This document shows positions 3,060 to 9,844 of a DNA stretch of 64,000 nt, one piece after another. The translations under genes were made by a program, and so were the position numbers. The first letter of the stretch is position 1. Every line of letters begins with the position of its first letter. The DNA is taken from positions 1 through 64,000 of IMG/VR virus record IMGVR_UViG_3300015242_000024; one strand, 5' to 3'. The DNA comes from a virus. The notes beneath the pieces are model-generated. The model did no database searches. It worked only from the letters and a program-made list of their open reading frames with translations, and was not told where the DNA came from.

Positions 3060-3430
3060 CGACTGGCTACAACTTGAGAACTGAATAATGGGATACAGAA
3101 ACACATTACGAGCCTAGAGCGCTTAGGGTCACTTGCGGGTGAAAGATGCCCGGAATACACCGAAAGCGGATTTAGTTTCACTGCTATTCGCATAGCAAGC
3201 TTATTACCTTGACCCTCTCCCTGTCTTTGGCAAGACATATCGGGTTCACTGGCAAGAATTCCTTTCCGGACGGTAGACCGGGTGTGAAAAGGAATTAGGG
3301 GAAAAGCTGAAAGGCGGTAGCGCTAGATTCTGAATTGCGGCTCGCAGCGACCCTTTCGAAATCATCAAAGGGTCACCGGTTATGCGCCTGTCTTTGGGCG
3401 ATATCCGGCTAGGGAAGAAAGCGAGTCATC
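3060..3430. other. Non-coding stretch with hairpins
   Basis: No gene is seen. It contains inverted repeats AATTCC.../...GGAATT (about 3256-3294) and GACCCTTT/AAAGGGTC (about 3349-3373). It is probably an untranslated leader for the gene at 3431. Confidence 0.4.
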
Positions 3431-3718
3431 ATGGCCACTGTCAAGACTGCCACGCCTGCCACGACCCCCCGCAAGCGCGCTGTGCGTAAGCCTGCCGCTG
3501 TCAAGGGTGTGTCACTGGCCCGTGTCACTCCGAAGCTGAGTTCGGCCCGTACAACGGACTACAGCGGTTTTTGCCGTGCGCTCCTGAACATGGGGGACGC
3601 TGCGGAGACTGCCACAACCGTTGACAAGGATGGAAACACCGTTCCGTCACAGAGTGCGCGCCGTTACTACGGCGCACGTCGTGACGCACTGCTGAACACG
3701 TTCGTTCAGTACCTCTAG
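3431..3718 (+). CDS. Ala/Lys/Thr-rich tailed protein, unknown
   Basis: A 95-residue protein. The first 45 residues are Lys/Arg/Ala/Pro/Thr-rich and look like a disordered, DNA-binding, histone-like tail; the second half (about 45-95) looks folded and helical. The start is ATG 3431 after GAAAGCGAG. It opens the 3.4-9.6 kb small-gene block. A DNA-binding role is inferred from composition only. Confidence 0.65.
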   Translation: MATVKTATPATTPRKRAVRKPAAVKGVSLARVTPKLSSARTTDYSGFCRALLNMGDAAETATTVDKDGNTVPSQSARRYYGARRDALLNTFVQYL

Positions 3719-3801
3719 GCAATACCGCAAAACAACTGAATAGCAATTCCACAATTCCTTTTACCCCCTAGTCGGTTATGGCCCAATGAAAGGAAATGCA
3801 A

Positions 3802-4206
3802 ATGGATGCCATGACTAAGCGGGAAGCGCTTAAGATTCTGCGCGACCTGAAAGCACGTGAGGCAGAGTATTACGCCGAACGTGAGGAATGGTATATGTCT
3901 GGTGACGGACGGCGGCCGAATTACCGAACTAATCCGGAAACGGGCCGGTTGGTAAACTACGGCGGTAAGAGTCATTCATTCCCTATCGCTTGTGTTCACG
4001 GTTCGTCGGCATGGACGGATTACGACAACATTTGCGGCCCGTGCGAGGATGGATATTCCATCTATCAACTCGCAATTTGGGAAGCGCAAGAAAGGGTGGC
4101 AAAGGTAAACGAGCGTATCGAATGGCTCGGTACTGCGCCTAGCTCACTGCGACACACGGAAATGCATCGGGAATTGCTCGAATGGGCATTGTCTCCGATT
4201 AAGTAA
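3802..4206 (+). CDS. Unknown protein with possible Zn-binding Cys pair
   Basis: A 134-residue protein. Cys residues near positions 64-80 include a CxxC pair (CGPC) preceded by CVHG, which could bind a metal. The N-terminus is a charged helix (about 1-28). ATG 3802 is preferred to the ATG at 3796 because GAAAGGA lies 7 nt before 3802. No family is recognised. Confidence 0.65.
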   Translation: MDAMTKREALKILRDLKAREAEYYAEREEWYMSGDGRRPNYRTNPETGRLVNYGGKSHSFPIACVHGSSAWTDYDNICGPCEDGYSIYQLAIWEAQERVAKVNERIEWLGTAPSSLRHTEMHRELLEWALSPIK

Positions 4207-4225
4207 TTCCAAGCTGTAGGGATAC

Positions 4226-4260
4226 CGGGCGGGTTGGTTGTTGAGTACCAACCTTGCCCG
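4226..4260 (+). other. Octaloop hairpin, TGTTGAGT loop
   Basis: GGTTGGT (4232-4238), loop TGTTGAGT (4239-4246), ACCAACC (4247-4253), extended by CGGGC/GCCCG. First of four hairpins with loop TGNNGAGT. Confidence 0.7.
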
Positions 4261-4283
4261 TGTCCACACAGAAAGGAATACGA

Positions 4284-4556
4284 GTGGATATCGAACGATT
4301 CGCCGCAATTCTGGAAATCGATTGCGCGAAACGTGAATATAGCGCGGCTCATGCTCAAATGGTGGAGAAATTCACACAAGGGTATGACGTTTGGTCGCTA
4401 GCTGGTTATATCGATTCGGCGGAAAAGGCGCTCCCCAAAATCCGGAATATCGGAAATACCGAATACGTGAGAATGCGTGACGGTGTTAAGGGAAAGCGAA
4501 AGACTCCGCGCGGTTCGCTTATCAGCAGTAGTGCAATGCGCAGGAAGGGGCGGTAA
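4284..4556 (+). CDS. Small protein of unknown function
   Basis: A 90-residue protein, helical in the first two thirds, with a basic Ser/Arg/Lys-rich C-terminus. The GTG at 4284 is 7 nt after AGAAAGGAA. Its stop overlaps the ATG of the next gene by one base, so the two are probably translationally coupled. No family is recognised. Confidence 0.65.
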   Translation: MDIERFAAILEIDCAKREYSAAHAQMVEKFTQGYDVWSLAGYIDSAEKALPKIRNIGNTEYVRMRDGVKGKRKTPRGSLISSSAMRRKGR

Positions 4557-5026
4557 TGCAGTTCTTCAATCCCACACGGGAAGTGACCGAAAGCAATTAC
4601 GCGATTCTTGCCGAATATGGCTGGAATGGCGAAAACCTCATTCGGTCTGAGTATTTCGGTTCGGCTAAGGAATTCGCTGATTTCCTTGACCGTTTCGATT
4701 ACGGTTCCGGTGACGTGTTCGGGTGGCAAGGTGATTCGGCCACAATGGAAGCTGTGGCAAGCTTCCGAAAGGAATCGGATTTCGTCGCGGTTCCGGATTT
4801 CATCACGGAATACAACACGAACGATGGTTCTTCGGAAATCATCGGGGCGGACGCATTCCACAACTTGCGCCGTATGTTTCGGCGTGACCCGGATTACCGC
4901 ATTCACCGGCATTTCTGCGGTGACGCAAAGGTCCATTCGGTAATGTATATCGGAAAGGGTGAACCGGTTCTTTCGTCCTACGTTTGGCACGTTCCCTTTG
5001 GGAGTGACGAACTGTACGGCGGTTAA
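4556..5026 (+). CDS. Unknown acidic protein
   Basis: A 156-residue soluble protein rich in Phe, Asp, Glu and Gly, with no recognisable domain. The start overlaps the upstream stop (TAATG). A hairpin (about 5124-5153) and a short non-coding spacer follow. Confidence 0.65.
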   Translation: MQFFNPTREVTESNYAILAEYGWNGENLIRSEYFGSAKEFADFLDRFDYGSGDVFGWQGDSATMEAVASFRKESDFVAVPDFITEYNTNDGSSEIIGADAFHNLRRMFRRDPDYRIHRHFCGDAKVHSVMYIGKGEPVLSSYVWHVPFGSDELYGG

Positions 5027-5123
5027 GCAATTCGGCACTAGATGGAAAGGGGGTGGTTACCTTGCGCAGAAAGCGTAAGCGTAAATTACCCTAGGCACTA
5101 AGCCAAGCTAGCGGGATTTGAGT

Positions 5124-5153
5124 TCCGGGCATTCCGAAAGGGTGTCCGGGCTA
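5124..5153 (+). other. Intergenic hairpin
   Basis: Outer arms CCGGGCA and TGTCCGG enclose a short inner stem with a CGAAAG loop. The same outer-arm wording (CGGGCAT...GTGTCCG) recurs around the hairpin near 6180, but without the octaloop. Confidence 0.5.
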
Positions 5154-5178
5154 ATGTCCAACTAGAAAGGTGGAAACA

Positions 5179-5340
5179 ATGCAGACTCTCAAGTTTGCCG
5201 CAATGCGTGCGGGTAATGACCCGGACCGTGATTCTGTTGACCACGGAACGTATTACGCGAATAACCTTCCCGGTATTCGAAAGTACCGAAAGGAAGTTCG
5301 GGTGACGCGTGGCGCATGGCGAAAGAGGGGAAGCAAGTAA
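5179..5340 (+). CDS. Small basic protein, unknown
   Basis: A 53-residue protein with a basic C-terminal third (Arg/Lys-rich). The ATG at 5179 follows GAAAGGTGG. Its stop overlaps the next ATG by one base (TAATG), indicating coupled translation. No family is recognised. Confidence 0.6.
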   Translation: MQTLKFAAMRAGNDPDRDSVDHGTYYANNLPGIRKYRKEVRVTRGAWRKRGSK

Positions 5341-5582
5341 TGCGGGAATATCTCGTGTGGAATGAATCGGGAGATTTGATTTCCGGTCCACACAGAAAAA
5401 GGGAAGTTGCTGAAAGGCAGCAAGCTAAGGCAATGACCGACTGTGAACAGAATTTTTGTGAAACGGACGGTCAAGAGGAAACGCCCGGTCGTGGCAATTT
5501 CAAGTGTGGCGTACTTTCACCGCACGGAATCCACATTCAAGTAACCGAGAATGGTTACGACATTACCGGGCATGATTACTGA
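5340..5582 (+). CDS. Small protein of unknown function
   Basis: An 80-residue protein with three Cys (about residues 35, 40 and 56) and mixed charge. It starts at the ATG overlapping the upstream stop; a longer frame starting at 5316 would sit inside the previous gene. No family is recognised. Confidence 0.6.
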   Translation: MREYLVWNESGDLISGPHRKREVAERQQAKAMTDCEQNFCETDGQEETPGRGNFKCGVLSPHGIHIQVTENGYDITGHDY

Positions 5583-5602
5583 CATTCTGTGTGTCTGGTC
5601 AT

Positions 5603-5622
5603 TGTCAGTGCGGAGTCTGACA
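5603..5622 (+). other. Octaloop hairpin, TGCGGAGT loop
   Basis: Perfect 6-bp stem TGTCAG/CTGACA around loop TGCGGAGT (5609-5616). Weaker outer pairing extends it on both sides. Confidence 0.7.
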
Positions 5623-5667
5623 GTGTCCAAATGCATTGACGGTCAATGCAGAGAAAAGGGGCTCAAA

Positions 5668-5829
5668 ATGCGTACTGCCATCGTTGACGGTCGTTCGGGT
5701 GTCGTTGCTGCCACCGGTTCGGCGCAGAATGCCGGTAAGGTGTTCGTCCTTTTCGATGATGAGCGTTTCACCGGTGACACGTCCGCCGATTGGTTCCCCG
5801 CGTCGGTCGTTACGTCCGACAACGGCTGA
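5668..5829 (+). CDS. Small protein of unknown function
   Basis: A 53-residue product with beta-strand-like alternation and Gly/Ser-rich turns, resembling a small SH3-like barrel (weak impression only). The ATG at 5668 follows AAAAGGGG. It is flanked by hairpins on both sides. Confidence 0.55.
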   Translation: MRTAIVDGRSGVVAATGSAQNAGKVFVLFDDERFTGDTSADWFPASVVTSDNG

Positions 5830-5839
5830 CAACGTGTGT

Positions 5840-5873
5840 GGGGGAGCGTCTGAGAGGTTTTCAGCGCTCCCCC
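5840..5873 (+). terminator. Strong GC stem-loop
   Basis: GGGGGAGC (5840-5847) pairs with GCTCCCCC (5866-5873), with an inner CTGA/TCAG pair. No T-run follows, so it may be an RNA-stabilising hairpin rather than a terminator. Confidence 0.5.
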
Positions 5874-5933
5874 GGTCCATCGGTCCAACCAAGCTACGAA
5901 CGGCCGTTAGAACGGCACTGAGAGGGTTTCGCC

Positions 5934-6158
5934 ATGGCGCGTACCAAGTGGGAAATCCTGTCCGCTCAACTCGAAACCGCGCGTGCGGAAGTTGAGCGGC
6001 TGGAAAGCTACATGCGAGGAATGGAAAACACCCCGGATAACGTCAAGTGTTCCGGATGCGGTGAACAATTCCGCGTGAATGCAGATTTCGCGCGGCATTT
6101 CAAGATTCCGAATGAACAATTGCTCAACATGGGATATTGCCCGAACAATCCGCGATAA
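5934..6158 (+). CDS. Coiled-coil plus Zn-finger-like small protein
   Basis: A 74-residue protein. The first 30 residues form an amphipathic helix or coiled coil. Then come CxxC (CSGC) near 39-42, a His near 54 and a Cys near 69, a possible single Zn-finger. The ATG at 5934 follows GAGAGGG. This type often binds nucleic acid; no named family is assigned. Confidence 0.65.
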   Translation: MARTKWEILSAQLETARAEVERLESYMRGMENTPDNVKCSGCGEQFRVNADFARHFKIPNEQLLNMGYCPNNPR

Positions 6159-6184
6159 AGACTGACGCTTATACGTCCGGGCAT

Positions 6185-6204
6185 TCTCAATGCAGAGTTT
6201 GAGA
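6185..6204 (+). other. Octaloop hairpin, TGCAGAGT loop
   Basis: Perfect 6-bp stem TCTCAA/TTGAGA around loop TGCAGAGT (6191-6198). Outer arms CGGGCA and TGTCCG extend it. Confidence 0.7.
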
Positions 6205-6244
6205 GTGTCCGAATGTCCTAAGGGTTAGGGCAGGAAAGGAAACA

Positions 6245-6679
6245 ATGGAGATTCGCAACGTGACCAATCCGAGCAACATCGGAACGGCCATTCTCCAGAC
6301 TTCCGCAAAGTGGGGAGACAACATCACTTCCCGTGGCATTACGTCGAATGTCCGGCGCAATGGCAATTACAATGCGCGGGTAAGGCTTGTGGCGCATTCG
6401 TCGTTTGGTGACGGAACGCGCGAAAGCGCAAGCGGTAGGCGCGGCCCGTGGGTTTGCTGGCATGCGCAGCGCGATTTTTTCCGCGCGCTGTTCGCCATTG
6501 AGCCTACGGCAACGGTTCGAACGGGCCTAGGACGTGATGGGGTGACCTATTCGGCCGCAAGCTTTGAGAGCACGTTTCCGGGCACGTACAACACGAATGC
6601 GGGAAGTCTGTACTACCCGCGAGAGTTTGGCGGGTTGTGCGGTCACGGTGGACGTGAGGCAGTGAACGGCACTTATTAA
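6245..6679 (+). CDS. Unknown protein
   Basis: A 144-residue protein rich in Gly, Arg, Asn and Thr, with Trp and aromatic residues in the middle. No membrane segment or recognisable domain. The ATG at 6245 follows GGAAAGGAA. It lies between two octaloop hairpins. Confidence 0.65.
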   Translation: MEIRNVTNPSNIGTAILQTSAKWGDNITSRGITSNVRRNGNYNARVRLVAHSSFGDGTRESASGRRGPWVCWHAQRDFFRALFAIEPTATVRTGLGRDGVTYSAASFESTFPGTYNTNAGSLYYPREFGGLCGHGGREAVNGTY

Positions 6680-6688
6680 ACGGTTCGG

Positions 6689-6718
6689 GGGAATGGCAAT
6701 GGAGAGTTTGCCATTCCC
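6689..6718 (+). other. Octaloop hairpin, TGGAGAGT loop
   Basis: Perfect 11-bp stem GGGAATGGCAA/TTGCCATTCCC around loop TGGAGAGT (6700-6707). This is the longest stem of the four-member family. Confidence 0.75.
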
Positions 6719-6757
6719 TCAATCCGCTTAAGGTGAGTGGATTAGAAAGGCAATACA

Positions 6758-7147
6758 ATGTCGGGACACATTTTCGCTTTCATGACCGCAACGGCCGTGG
6801 AAATTGCCCCGGAAGATGAAAACGGAGGAATTGAGCTTAACGGTTGGGTTGACAGGGAATGGTCTATGACTGCATTGCACGATTCCCGCAACGACGTTTC
6901 TCCGCTCATGTCGCTTGACGAAAGCGACACGGAAGCTTTGGCGGACGAAATCCGAGACATTCTCGGTGACGCTTCGCTGTATTTCGACAATGGGGACGGG
7001 AATTTTTACATTCACGATTCCCGTACGGAAGATGGAATGGAATTCACGTACTGCGTGAATTTCAAGCGTAAGTTTCTCGGCTCGAATGGTTGGGCTGAGG
7101 AATCTTGGCACCCTGAGAATGACGGGGGCATTTCGCTTTCTGAGTAG
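6758..7147 (+). CDS. Unknown acidic protein
   Basis: A 129-residue, strongly acidic protein (Asp/Glu clusters around 17-25 and 48-65). No known domain. Small acidic phage proteins can mimic DNA or bind host DNA-binding proteins, but nothing here proves that. The ATG at 6758 follows GAAAGG. Confidence 0.65.
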   Translation: MSGHIFAFMTATAVEIAPEDENGGIELNGWVDREWSMTALHDSRNDVSPLMSLDESDTEALADEIRDILGDASLYFDNGDGNFYIHDSRTEDGMEFTYCVNFKRKFLGSNGWAEESWHPENDGGISLSE

Positions 7148-7156
7148 TTGAATGTC

Positions 7157-7175
7157 CGGGGCACAATGTGCCCCG
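7157..7175 (+). other. Intergenic hairpin
   Basis: CGGGGCAC and GTGCCCCG form an 8-bp stem with a 3-nt loop. No octaloop motif is present. Confidence 0.55.
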
Positions 7176-7205
7176 TGGCATTGTCTATTTAGAAAGGTGG
7201 CCAAA

Positions 7206-7454
7206 GTGGCTATCGTTCGGTTGACAGGCATTCCCACAAATCGACGGGAAATCGAAATCGAGTGGGAGTGTGAGGTAAGGGGATTTCGTGGCGCTACTGC
7301 GGTAGTGGCGCGGGATTTGAGGCACACAGCAACAAACGACTTTCGGCATAAGGTCATGCGCCTATGGGCCGAACACGGAAAGTCGGGCGGTTTCGCTATC
7401 AAGGAAAAGCACAGTGATTCATGGTGGCTTTTCGAGTATGTAGAGGGGAAGTAA
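7206..7454 (+). CDS. Small basic protein, unknown
   Basis: An 82-residue protein starting at GTG 7206 after GAAAGGTGG. It alternates strand-like segments with Arg-rich turns and ends in an aromatic stretch with paired Trp. No family is recognised. Confidence 0.6.
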   Translation: MAIVRLTGIPTNRREIEIEWECEVRGFRGATAVVARDLRHTATNDFRHKVMRLWAEHGKSGGFAIKEKHSDSWWLFEYVEGK

Positions 7455-7458
7455 GACA

Positions 7459-7554
7459 ATGGCAATCACAACATGGATTATCCGTTGTGTGAACTGCCGC
7501 CGGTTGATTTTTGCTGGGCAAACGTGCGTTTGCGGAACTCGCAACGGTGTATGA
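7459..7554 (+). CDS. 31-residue Cys-rich microprotein
   Basis: The ATG at 7459, after GGGGAAGTAAG, opens a 31-residue frame with Cys at 10, 13, 23 and 25 (CxxC and CxC), an arrangement that could hold one zinc ion. The frame exactly fills the gap between two genes, and its stop overlaps the next gene's ribosome-binding site. Confidence 0.5.
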   Translation: MAITTWIIRCVNCRRLIFAGQTCVCGTRNGV

Positions 7555-7565
7555 AAGGTAGAAAA

Positions 7566-7826
7566 GTGAAGGAAATCATGCGGGTTTGCCTTTCCGACAA
7601 TGGAAAGGAAATCCTGATGTATTCCGAGAATGGCGAAACCCTGGAAAGGGTATACGCCGTTCGTGACTTTGCCGCGATTGCTGAAACGGCAAGGGAAGCT
7701 GTGGAATCCGCTTTCCAGGATGACTACATGGAAAGGAACGGACGGCATTTCAATAACTGCCTAGGCTATGAGGATTGCCGGGCGGGTATGTGTGATGAGC
7801 ATTACGAGAATGAAGGGACGTACTGA
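7566..7826 (+). CDS. Unknown acidic protein with C-terminal Cys cluster
   Basis: An 86-residue protein. GTG 7566 is chosen after GAAAGG; longer in-frame starts overlap the Cys microprotein. The C-terminus carries four closely spaced Cys/His positions (NNCxxxxxC, MCxxH), a possible metal site. No family is recognised. Confidence 0.6.
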   Translation: MKEIMRVCLSDNGKEILMYSENGETLERVYAVRDFAAIAETAREAVESAFQDDYMERNGRHFNNCLGYEDCRAGMCDEHYENEGTY

Positions 7827-7827
7827 A

Positions 7828-8193
7828 ATGCGTTGGATTCCCATTGGCCGAAAGGCTTTTGCCGAAATCCAGTCGGAAGCTACAGAAACCGTCACTGACG
7901 AATACGAGGGAATCACCCTGTACTTTGGGGAAACGATTTCCGCTATTCGTCGCATGGGTGAGCGGCTGTACATGTACGAAACGAATTTTCGTGAGGCAAT
8001 CCAGGAAGTTGACGTTACCGAATTGCAGGAAGGTGATGTTATTTGGTATTGCCTCAATGACGGACCGGTAAGGGCACATCGTCCGCACGTCGAATATCCC
8101 AATACCGAAATGGTTTTCTGGCATTCCGGTATGAAGGATGCATTCGGTTCGCCCCAAAAGTTGGAAGTATTGCGGGGCGGACAGTTCGCCTAG
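7828..8193 (+). CDS. Unknown protein
   Basis: A 121-residue protein, mixed alpha/beta by eye, with no membrane segment. The ATG at 7828 follows GAAGGGAC, 1 nt after the previous stop, so translation is probably coupled. No domain is recognised. Confidence 0.65.
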   Translation: MRWIPIGRKAFAEIQSEATETVTDEYEGITLYFGETISAIRRMGERLYMYETNFREAIQEVDVTELQEGDVIWYCLNDGPVRAHRPHVEYPNTEMVFWHSGMKDAFGSPQKLEVLRGGQFA

Positions 8194-8199
8194 GTAGTA

Positions 8200-8244
8200 G
8201 AGGGGTACACAGTGGTTGGTACAATAAATCCCTGTGTGCCTCTC
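8200..8244 (+). other. Long imperfect stem-loop
   Basis: A 13-bp stem with two G-U pairs (8200-8212 with 8232-8244). The loop carries TACAAT, which could be a -10 box. It is a terminator or a regulatory leader for the gene at 8296. Confidence 0.5.
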
Positions 8245-8295
8245 TAAGGCACTCGGAATCGGTCCGGGTGTCATTGCCTAGGGAAGGGTCTAGCG

Positions 8296-8886
8296 ATGCG
8301 TCACGTAGCCACACACGGGCACAACGGGTACTTTGGGTGTGAGCGGGAAGGGTGTAAGAACCTTCCTGCCGTTCATGGCACCCATACGCGTTGCCGTTGT
8401 GAGGGTTGGCAGACTCAAAACAAGGGATTGTGTACGGCGTGCAATTCGCCGGTATTGGCGGATTGGGAATGGGAACTCTTGACGGATAATGTCCATTGGG
8501 CTAATTCGTGCCTAGGGGATGGTTTCAATTCCTATGGTATGGAGTGCCCCGGATATGCACGTTCAGAATGGCCGTGCTCGGTATGCTCAGATAGGCAGGC
8601 ATCGGAAGTGCAGAATTCGGCCGGGTTTGTAGAGACCCTAGATAGAATGGTAAGCAATATGCAGAATAGGGAAGAAAAGGAAACAGACAACTTCCCTATT
8701 ACCCTAGTAGCACATAGGGGAGATAAGACTATCCCTGTAGTGCATGTAAGGGCAGATAGCATTACCGCAGTAGAGAGTAAGACAAAGGGATATGTAGACC
8801 TTTCCTTTGAGTATTACGGTAATGACATCATTGGCTATGTGCCTATGGTGGATTACTACACAACCGAGTCTGATAGTGACTACTGA
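8296..8886 (+). CDS. Cys-rich putative Zn-binding protein, two-part
   Basis: A 196-residue protein. The first 105 residues hold many Cys/His pairs (CEREGC, CRC, CTAC, CSVC), probably two or more zinc sites. Residues about 120-196 lack Cys and read as a beta-rich domain. Base and codon use change near 8600, inside the gene, where TAG/ATA/GTA words become frequent. The gene may be a fusion across a mosaic junction. The ATG follows GGGAAGGG. Confidence 0.7.
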   Translation: MRHVATHGHNGYFGCEREGCKNLPAVHGTHTRCRCEGWQTQNKGLCTACNSPVLADWEWELLTDNVHWANSCLGDGFNSYGMECPGYARSEWPCSVCSDRQASEVQNSAGFVETLDRMVSNMQNREEKETDNFPITLVAHRGDKTIPVVHVRADSITAVESKTKGYVDLSFEYYGNDIIGYVPMVDYYTTESDSDY

Positions 8887-9009
8887 TAGGGGGTAAATAG
8901 ACGCTAACTAATAGTTAGTGTAGATAGAGGGATATTGTGCAGCCTTTATGGTGCATTTATGTCGCATTTCTTTATAGAATTCAATTTAATTCAAAGAAAG
9001 TGGGGCAGA

Positions 9010-9093
9010 ATGCGGCCATTCCTGCTAATAACAGCCCTATTCCTGATAGGGGCCTATATGGTGGGGGTATTGCCAGGGGGTATTACCTACTAG
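9010..9093 (+). CDS. 27-residue hydrophobic peptide
   Basis: The ATG at 9010, after GAAAGTGGGG, opens a 27-residue frame that is almost entirely one membrane segment. A longer alternative frame (8937-9149) has poorer composition. Very short, so uncertain. Confidence 0.4.
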   Translation: MRPFLLITALFLIGAYMVGVLPGGITY

Positions 9094-9114
9094 GGTATAG
9101 GCAAGGGTATATAG

Positions 9115-9136
9115 GGGGTGCATATAGTACCCCCGC
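9115..9136. other. GGGGGT...ACCCCC hairpin
   Basis: A 6-bp GC stem with a short AT loop in a stretch crowded with TATAGG and TAGGG words. Confidence 0.45.
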
Positions 9137-9158
9137 ATATAGAGAGTAGGGATATACA

Positions 9159-9434
9159 GTGTTCGCATTGCAGTATGTAGATAGGCCGGGTAATGGGTAT
9201 GGTGGATATGTAGTGAATGACGGTACACATACCGTATTCATTGCGGCTACCACATCTAGTGATATCGGTAAGCTGTATAGGTGGCTAGGTAAGGGGGATA
9301 TGGCCAAGGGTAGGGATGAATACCAGAGTGATGCACTCACCTTGCCTAGTGTGTCTCTCAATCCCATGCAATACAATGACATGGTTAACCCTATGTCTAA
9401 GGGTAATGAGGTTGCATATATCAAAGAGGGTTAA
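9159..9434 (+). CDS. Small protein of unknown function
   Basis: A 91-residue soluble protein starting at GTG 9159 after GTAGGGAT. Gly/Tyr-rich N-terminus, polar C-terminus, no known domain. Its 3' end overlaps the next gene. Confidence 0.6.
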   Translation: MFALQYVDRPGNGYGGYVVNDGTHTVFIAATTSSDIGKLYRWLGKGDMAKGRDEYQSDALTLPSVSLNPMQYNDMVNPMSKGNEVAYIKEG

Positions 9435-9615
9435 GCAATCCCCCGAAATCCCGCCGGAAAAGGAATCGATTAATATAAAGGCAATTGGTGTAGGGGTTGC
9501 CGGTGGCACTGCCTTTATTGGATTCTCTGCATTCTTTATCGCAGTGATTTCCCTTATCGGTTTCCTTGCATGGGTATTGATATACGGATTGGCAATTGTA
9601 TTCGAGACTATCTAG
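9406..9615 (+). CDS. Small membrane protein
   Basis: A 69-residue protein with a basic N-terminus and a long hydrophobic region (about residues 25-65) that fits one long or two short membrane spans. ATG 9406 (or TTG 9412) lies inside the previous gene. It is the last gene before the convergent junction. Confidence 0.55.
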   Translation: MRLHISKRVKQSPEIPPEKESINIKAIGVGVAGGTAFIGFSAFFIAVISLIGFLAWVLIYGLAIVFETI

Positions 9616-9844
9616 AAAGGAATTGTTGTGGGGGTCCTTCCATTTAATTCGGAATGGGTCCCCCGGAATTTAAATTCAATTCCGAATTGAATTCCCTTTT
9701 ATGGGCGCACTAATTGCAATTGCAAATCTTATTTGCCGGCCTATATCATACATATTCAAATATTTTTAACATTTTGAATTTCATAAGTAAGTGACTCTAA
9801 GTAGTTGTAGATTACTGTGTGTAATTCGCCGTAAACGCAGAAAA
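9616..9844. other. AT-rich convergent junction
   Basis: No gene. GGGGGTCC.../...GGTCCCCC (about 9634-9665) may end the plus-strand row. AATTCAATT/AATTGAATT follows (about 9670-9692), then very AT-rich DNA. Genes converge here and sequence style changes. Confidence 0.5.

Follow-up and report, generated by a model that had tools for sequence, protein, structure and literature searches.

Introduction

In T4-type phages, the promoter early stem-loop (PeSL) is reported, in papers citing Arbiol et al. 2010 and Comeau et al. 2014, to include a promoter and a terminator and to recur between genes in a region of intense small-gene shuffling, modules being exchanged at the hairpins. In Cluster K mycobacteriophages, the short start-associated sequences (SAS) and extended SAS (ESAS) lie 5' of many non-structural genes of different families; the ESAS are inverted repeats with conserved 17-bp arms and a variable spacer, and a role in translation initiation is suspected (PMC3203893). 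Among pentaloops, that of phage boxB included, GNRA-like folds are known in which one base is looped out (PMC12550061). We analysed here a window of 64 kb (positions 1 to 64,000 of the IMG/VR virus record IMGVR_UViG_3300015242_000024, itself 68.8 kb long) that carries four intergenic hairpins sharing an 8-nucleotide (nt) loop, the octaloop, with the RNA consensus UGNRGAGU. The phage is related to the Streptomyces phages Sham, Faust, Blueeyedbeauty and Annadreamy (Stanwilliamsviridae, Loccivirinae), with about 77-80% identity in matched DNA, and positions 3431-8200 of the window correspond to a block of small genes, all on one strand, at the right end of those phage genomes.

The octaloop hairpins resemble PeSL in being repeated intergenic stem-loops at which the modules of a shuffling small-gene region are exchanged. 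They differ in that no promoter adjoins them in a sigma-70-type scan and no U-tract follows them, in that a second hairpin often stands beside the ribosome-binding site, and in that the conserved part is the apical loop and not a promoter. With SAS and ESAS they share a place upstream of actinobacteriophage genes of different families; the ESAS, however, have fixed arms and a variable spacer, whereas the octaloop hairpins combine variable arms with a fixed loop, and the 13-bp SAS GGGATAGGAGCCC had no match with up to 2 mismatches. The boxB hairpin of lambdoid nut sites, likewise a small phage RNA hairpin, has a GNRA-like loop with an extra base (GNRNA); the octaloop contains GNRGA in 12 of 13 distinct sequences and may fold similarly. 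Unlike boxB, it has eight loop nucleotides and longer stems and is repeated many times, each copy following a stop codon; a search of 3400-8400 for a boxA-like GCTCTTTA, allowing one mismatch, gave nothing, and no N-like protein was identified among ten block proteins. The two share at most a loop fold. Hairpins with GNRA or UNCG tetraloops occupy the same intergenic positions on the same long stems in related phages, but the octaloop has eight nucleotides, six of them fixed, and is not among the loop types reported in the literature on hairpin loops that was searched. In Rfam, the gathering score was reached by tRNAs only, and 3400-8400 gave no match at E<=1; nor did the literature searched, which included few subscription journals, yield a paper on the element. 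Phage intergenic hairpin cassettes are already known, and it is their apex here that appears to be previously unreported.

Four octaloop hairpins and the gaps that contain them

An earlier note on this DNA had reported four intergenic hairpins with a common 8-nt loop, and all four are present at the positions and with the loops that it gave (Table 1), the case for them proving stronger than it had made it. Its stems of 6-11 bp hold as perfect Watson-Crick cores of 7, 6, 6 and 11 bp, whereas the true stems, with G-U pairs and extensions, measure 13-18 bp. The arms, described there as unrelated, are mostly so, except that copies 2 and 3 have an outer CATT...AGTGTCC part in common. The window holds 4 stem-closed TGNNGAGT on the + strand. 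In 300 dinucleotide shuffles of the window their number averaged 0.06 and never exceeded 1, and shuffles of the 4.9-kb block gave 0.005. The bare octamer TGNNGAGT is not enriched (37 matches for 38.7 expected). No further TGNNGAGT hairpin with a stem of at least 5 bp was found in the window, and a covariance model run over the whole 68.8-kb record gave no additional octaloop hairpin. The predicted RNA folds of the four range from -22 to -28 kcal/mol, with z between -4.3 and -6.2; for hairpin 1, which the covariance model matched at 36.5 bits (R1), the outer stem reaches 4220-4265 (-28 kcal/mol, z -5.3).

The gaps of the block have a common anatomy. A typical gap measures about 75-105 nt. The main hairpin (H1) begins 1-24 nt past the stop codon and is often followed by a second, smaller one (H2); a GAAAGG-like ribosome-binding site then leads to the start codon. 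H2 is in many cases closed by an NGG triloop, and its arms, too, vary in concert between relatives. Little or nothing separates H1 from H2 at sites B, D and E, and the H2 at 6214..6232 overlaps with its first bases the outer end of the stem of hairpin 3. Site A showed no separate H2; one long structure is predicted there, in which bases immediately 3' of the stop codon pair with the last part of the ribosome-binding region.

Covariation and loop conservation in related phages

Scanning related phages for stem-closed TGNNGAGT gave more copies at intergenic sites, and 15 hairpins, 13 of them distinct, were aligned. The 13-pair helix is paired in 92.3% of its cells, a percentage biased upward because the set was selected by requiring a stem; the informative part is the amount of two-sided change. 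Eleven of the 13 pairs changed on both sides, double-change cells numbered 43 against 17.1 (sd 2.5) in shuffles, and the covariation score was 0.750 against 0.266 (sd 0.037). This signal was lost when the partner was slid by one to three columns.

Positions U1, G2, G5, A6, G7 and U8 of the loop are invariant across the 13 distinct hairpins (UGNNGAGU), an invariance partly built in because the search pattern fixed those six positions, although a census blind to loop sequence (below) showed no 8-nt apex of any other kind; position 4 is a purine in all but hairpin 1 of the window, where it is U. The inner nine stem pairs hold 14 G-U and 0 A-C cells, and all 13 pairs hold 24 and 3, a tally somewhat biased in that the detection step permitted G-U. 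Since G-U pairs in RNA and the A-C of the opposite strand does not, the selected molecule appears to be the sense-strand RNA. The relatives supply the stem covariation and loop conservation on which the earlier note had made its proposal depend. Compensatory stem changes, the invariant loop, G-U without A-C in the inner stem and conservation between phages all support its view that the octaloop hairpins are conserved RNA elements.

Distribution of the octaloop

The covariance model built from this alignment gave 18 matches in 10 of 25 whole records of related phages, most of about 130 kb, all on the + strand and all in the right-end block. None was found at E<=0.05 in the other 15 records, and no octaloop hairpin was detected by the model on the opposite strand of the 25. 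A genome has up to four copies, confined to a single block, Moab and Patelgo having three each, and every match adjoins small genes. The element always lies on the gene strand, a short way 3' of a stop codon, and what comes next is a second hairpin or the ribosome-binding site. It was found 5' of seven different gene families, most intergenic sites being without it.

Some of the window copies have counterparts in related phages. The loop of hairpin 2 recurs 5' of the orthologous gene in Blueeyedbeauty (record L002, 9274-9307); counterparts of hairpin 3 lie at L002 10122, L004 10631, L007 11043 and L009 10696, and those of hairpin 4 at L009 11117, L010 12340 and L075 near 3852. This last record, a metagenomic relative, was the one clear new member from two exact-pattern scans of viral contigs, which otherwise gave weak matches. 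From the whole-record searches and the viral-contig scan, we therefore consider the element real, local and sporadic. Scanning bacterial genomes returned 46 scattered matches, none titled Streptomyces.

Exchange of apices and of gene modules

Comparison of orthologous gaps shows that, in Loccivirinae Streptomyces phages, the H1 hairpins of this shuffling block of small genes carry several exchangeable apex types, of which the octaloop is one. A census of 120 gaps in 14 phages, in which H1 was found regardless of its loop sequence, yielded 71 distinct H1 hairpins. UGNNGAGU caps 13 and GNRA another 13, the remaining apices being UUCG, other 3-5-nt loops and 9-11-nt loops; all 8-nt apices were UGNNGAGU. 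At site A, phages agree in the outer stem and flanks but differ in the apex of the inner hairpin: the loop is TGTTGAGT in the window, GCAA in Beuffert and Annadreamy, GAAA in Blueeyedbeauty and TunaTartare, whereas Faust and Sham have longer ones, the tops reading GGTTGGT-TGTTGAGT-ACCAACC, GGTTGGGGA-GCAA-TTCCCAACC and GGTAGGGAA-GAAA-TTCCCTACC. By eye, the gene that follows in the window (4284..4556) resembles Beuffert L003 8503-8799, where the hairpin has the GCAA loop. Upstream of gene family F08, the apex is, depending on the phage, the octaloop, GAGA, TTCG, TTAG or the 10-nt GCCTTTACGG.

The hairpins also occur before unrelated genes. CGGGCATTGTGAA-TGCAGAGT-TTCACAGTGTCCG precedes F31 in Faust and F15 in Moab, and the stem CGGGCATTGTGAA/TTCACAGTGTCCG is found with loop TGGAGAGT before F08 in Annadreamy; a 10-nt-loop cassette lies at site B in some phages and at site D in others. 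The right ends of Francob and Gilson show a whole module exchanged. Their alignment falls into two blocks, one of 8.2 kb with 98.9% identity and one of 5.1 kb with 97.6%, and between these lie 48 bp in Francob but 330 bp in Gilson. In Francob the intervening segment is an octaloop hairpin; in Gilson it holds a hairpin of another kind, one additional small gene and a further hairpin with GGAA. The module borders are the upstream stop codon and the end of H1, with H2 and the downstream gene unchanged. The covariance model found no octaloop in the whole Gilson genome. That Gilson does without the octaloop while near-identical to Francob argues against a need for a dedicated partner, although such a partner could still reside in the host or outside the region compared.

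In MeganTheeKilla, the apical loop of the intergenic hairpin at L046 10411-10443 is the exact inverse of that in Gilson (L011 10411-10443; TAAGCGACTCG and CGAGTCGCTTA), with arms unchanged. This suggests strand switching or cruciform processing at these hairpins.

A proposed structural role for H1 and its alternatives

We propose, with a probability of roughly one half, that H1 is a structural 3' cap and insulator, and that UGNRGAGU owes its effect to a compact, stable fold able to replace a GNRA tetraloop. H1 would shield the upstream message against 3'-to-5' decay, H1 and H2 would keep the folding and translation of neighbouring cistrons apart, and a gene-plus-hairpin module could thereby be gained or lost without disturbing its neighbours. 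The loop may adopt a GNR(G)A fold: its GNR-G-A fits the GNRA-like loops, known as variants (PMC12550061), in which a base inserted between positions three and four is looped out. In that case its six fixed bases would be set by the fold and not by a dedicated partner. The exchange of apices on maintained stems supports the idea that a stem and a compact apex matter while the exact apex class does not.

Several points weigh on the other side. The GNRA-like fold is proposed from the interchange of apices and from the GNR pattern, and the U of hairpin 1 departs from that pattern at position 4. Six invariant loop bases would also be expected from a protein or RNA partner. The fold at site A and the alternative pairings of H2 described below hint at regulation beyond passive insulation.

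The earlier note had suggested that the loop is recognised by a phage or host protein or by an antisense RNA coordinating the block, a suggestion weakened by the absence of the loop from most sites and from 15 of 25 records, and by its exchange at orthologous sites. In its fuller form, the octaloop would be the specific site of an RNA-binding protein or a base-pairing RNA controlling translation, decay or antitermination. Six of eight bases kept on a freely varying stem, and up to four copies per genome within one block, speak for this, and phage N peptides bind GNRA-like loops with looped-out bases (PMC12550061). We nevertheless regard it as rather unlikely: Gilson is among the records without the octaloop, other apices replace it at orthologous sites, the ten block proteins scanned include no known RNA-binding family (Pfam, PHROG), and the boxA-like motif is missing from 3400-8400. 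Two other uses of the loop were dropped. Kissing with ACTC-containing loops (AAGCGACTC), judged by eye, was set aside as octaloops are scarce or absent in most phages that carry the AAGCGACTC loop, whereas Moab, rich in octaloops, is without it; mimicry of a Shine-Dalgarno sequence was abandoned because GGAG is present in only some loop variants. Quite improbable, too, is that the hairpins are mainly joints for recombination of the DNA, that is, short shared cassettes at gene borders whose RNA structure is incidental. Such joints would account for one cassette standing before unrelated genes (F31, F15 and F08), for the stop codon and H1 end as module borders, for a 10-nt-loop cassette at either of two sites and for the inverted loop of MeganTheeKilla; homology joints should, however, keep their arm sequence, and here the arms diverge with compensation, the inner-stem deviations are G-U and not A-C, and no octaloop hairpin was detected on the opposite strand of the 25 records.

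Cleavage of H1, or of H1 stacked on H2, by host RNase III or another endonuclease would give units with hairpin-protected ends. The polycistronic message of the T7 early region is divided by such processing, an H1-like hairpin stands at most gene borders of the block, and at sites B, D and E the adjoining H1 and H2 could form one long helix by coaxial stacking. Processing alone does not explain a fixed loop, however, and stem length runs from about 8 to 23 bp across sites and phages, so that we hold this for decidedly improbable. Terminators that need no U-tract and tune read-through along the block would fit stable folds just past stop codons, but they seem highly improbable. The U-tract is absent at all four hairpins, and intrinsic terminators were rejected for these sites, no terminator-like site having been found. 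Strong termination at every border would moreover silence the distal genes, because the gaps have no promoter-like site on the + strand: a sigma-70-type scan, which does not cover all Streptomyces promoters, gave 4 matches in the region against 7.4 in shuffles, with no + strand match in these gaps.

Returning to the cap and insulator, a tip that is swapped with well-known ultra-stable tips has the look of an RNA cap that is interchangeable and was not described before. UGNRGAGU might alternatively take a T-loop-like fold. The boldest reading, held at a little under even odds, is that UGNRGAGU is an undescribed recurrent RNA fold, a self-contained GNRA-like (or T-loop-like) octaloop with which phages cap modular intergenic hairpins interchangeably with GNRA, or, at the extreme, a tag read by an RNA-binding protein of Streptomyces or of the phage. 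Should the loop prove to be a stable fold, the few recurrent hairpin loops of RNA would gain a member, one that phage evolution found by swapping it in place for GNRA. The cassettes suggest how some large Streptomyces phages add or drop small genes without upsetting their neighbours, much as insulators are used in synthetic operons, of which they would be the natural equivalent.

Features of the block and minor observations

Table 1. Hairpins and small genes of the block (window coordinates; ORF, open reading frame)
Feature	Position	Strand	Remarks
Small gene 5' of hairpin 1	3802..4206	+	ORF; family F06, common to relatives
Octaloop hairpin 1 (site A)	4226..4259	+	loop TGTTGAGT at 4239-4246; 7-bp core
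Small gene 3' of hairpin 1	4284..4556	+	GTG start
Intergenic hairpin, other apex (CGAAA)	5124..5150	+	same block
Small gene 5' of hairpin 2	5340..5582	+	ORF
Octaloop hairpin 2 (site B)	5596..5629	+	loop TGCGGAGT at 5609-5616
H2 TGCATTGA-CGG-TCAATGCA	5632..5650	+	just 5' of ribosome-binding site; arms covary in relatives
Small gene 3' of hairpin 2	5668..5829	+	ORF; family F03
Intergenic hairpin GGGGGAGCG...CGCTCCCCC	5840..5873	+	other apex, no U-tract; orthologous hairpins in relatives
Small gene 5' of hairpin 3	5934..6158	+	ORF; weak C2H2-like zinc finger
Octaloop hairpin 3 (site D)	6173..6216	+	loop TGCAGAGT at 6191-6198; 18-column stem, one mismatch
H2 TGTCCTAA-GGG-TTAGGGCA	6214..6232	+	5' of ribosome-binding site
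Small gene between hairpins 3 and 4	6245..6679	+	family F08
Octaloop hairpin 4 (site E)	6687..6720	+	loop TGGAGAGT at 6700-6707; 13-bp stem
H2 AATCCGCTTA-AGG-TGAGTGGATT	6721..6743	+	directly abuts hairpin 4
Small gene 3' of hairpin 4	6758..7147	+	ORF; family F07
Intergenic hairpin, apex AAT (CGGGGCAC/GTGCCCCG)	7157..7175	+	same block

The 5' arm of H2 has, in several gaps, two possible partners, its own 3' arm and a segment 5' of H1 (for example L006 9455-9543 and L010 10532-10628; at site B of L010, TTAGGGCGT with ATGTCCTAA). The cognate alternative pairing scored 7.0 against 6.03 (sd 0.24) for swapped partners, relatedness being uncorrected. Such pairings, and the one predicted at site A, could provide translational coupling at some sites, though not as a general rule. 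A bistable H1/H2 switch was not retained: the alternative pairing is strong at some sites and its overall excess is modest, and we record it as a side observation only.

None of the ten block proteins scanned passed the Pfam cutoff and one had a PHROG match, of unknown function; the product of the gene at 3802..4206 matched neither collection. The first gene of the block (window 3431-3718) belongs to family F01, which is also first in the relatives compared. Its 95-aa product, with a Lys/Arg-rich N-terminus and no family match, is a candidate nucleic-acid binder.

Ahead of the block, in a long stretch without annotated genes, perfect TTATCCACA DnaA-box-like sites lie at window 2340, 2352 and 2540 (minus strand), with similar ones in L002, L003, L005 and L006; a replication origin is possible there. 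Around window 8500-9700, the contig passes through the end and then the start of the deposited linear relatives, a pattern that would be expected with a terminally redundant genome or with end-joining in the assembly. Near the end of the block, a long and strongly conserved hairpin with a different apex, TAGAGGGGTACACAGTGGTT-GGTACAATA-AATCCCTGTGTGCCTCTCTA (window 8198-8246), is also present at L003 12178, L005 12281 and L006 11868.

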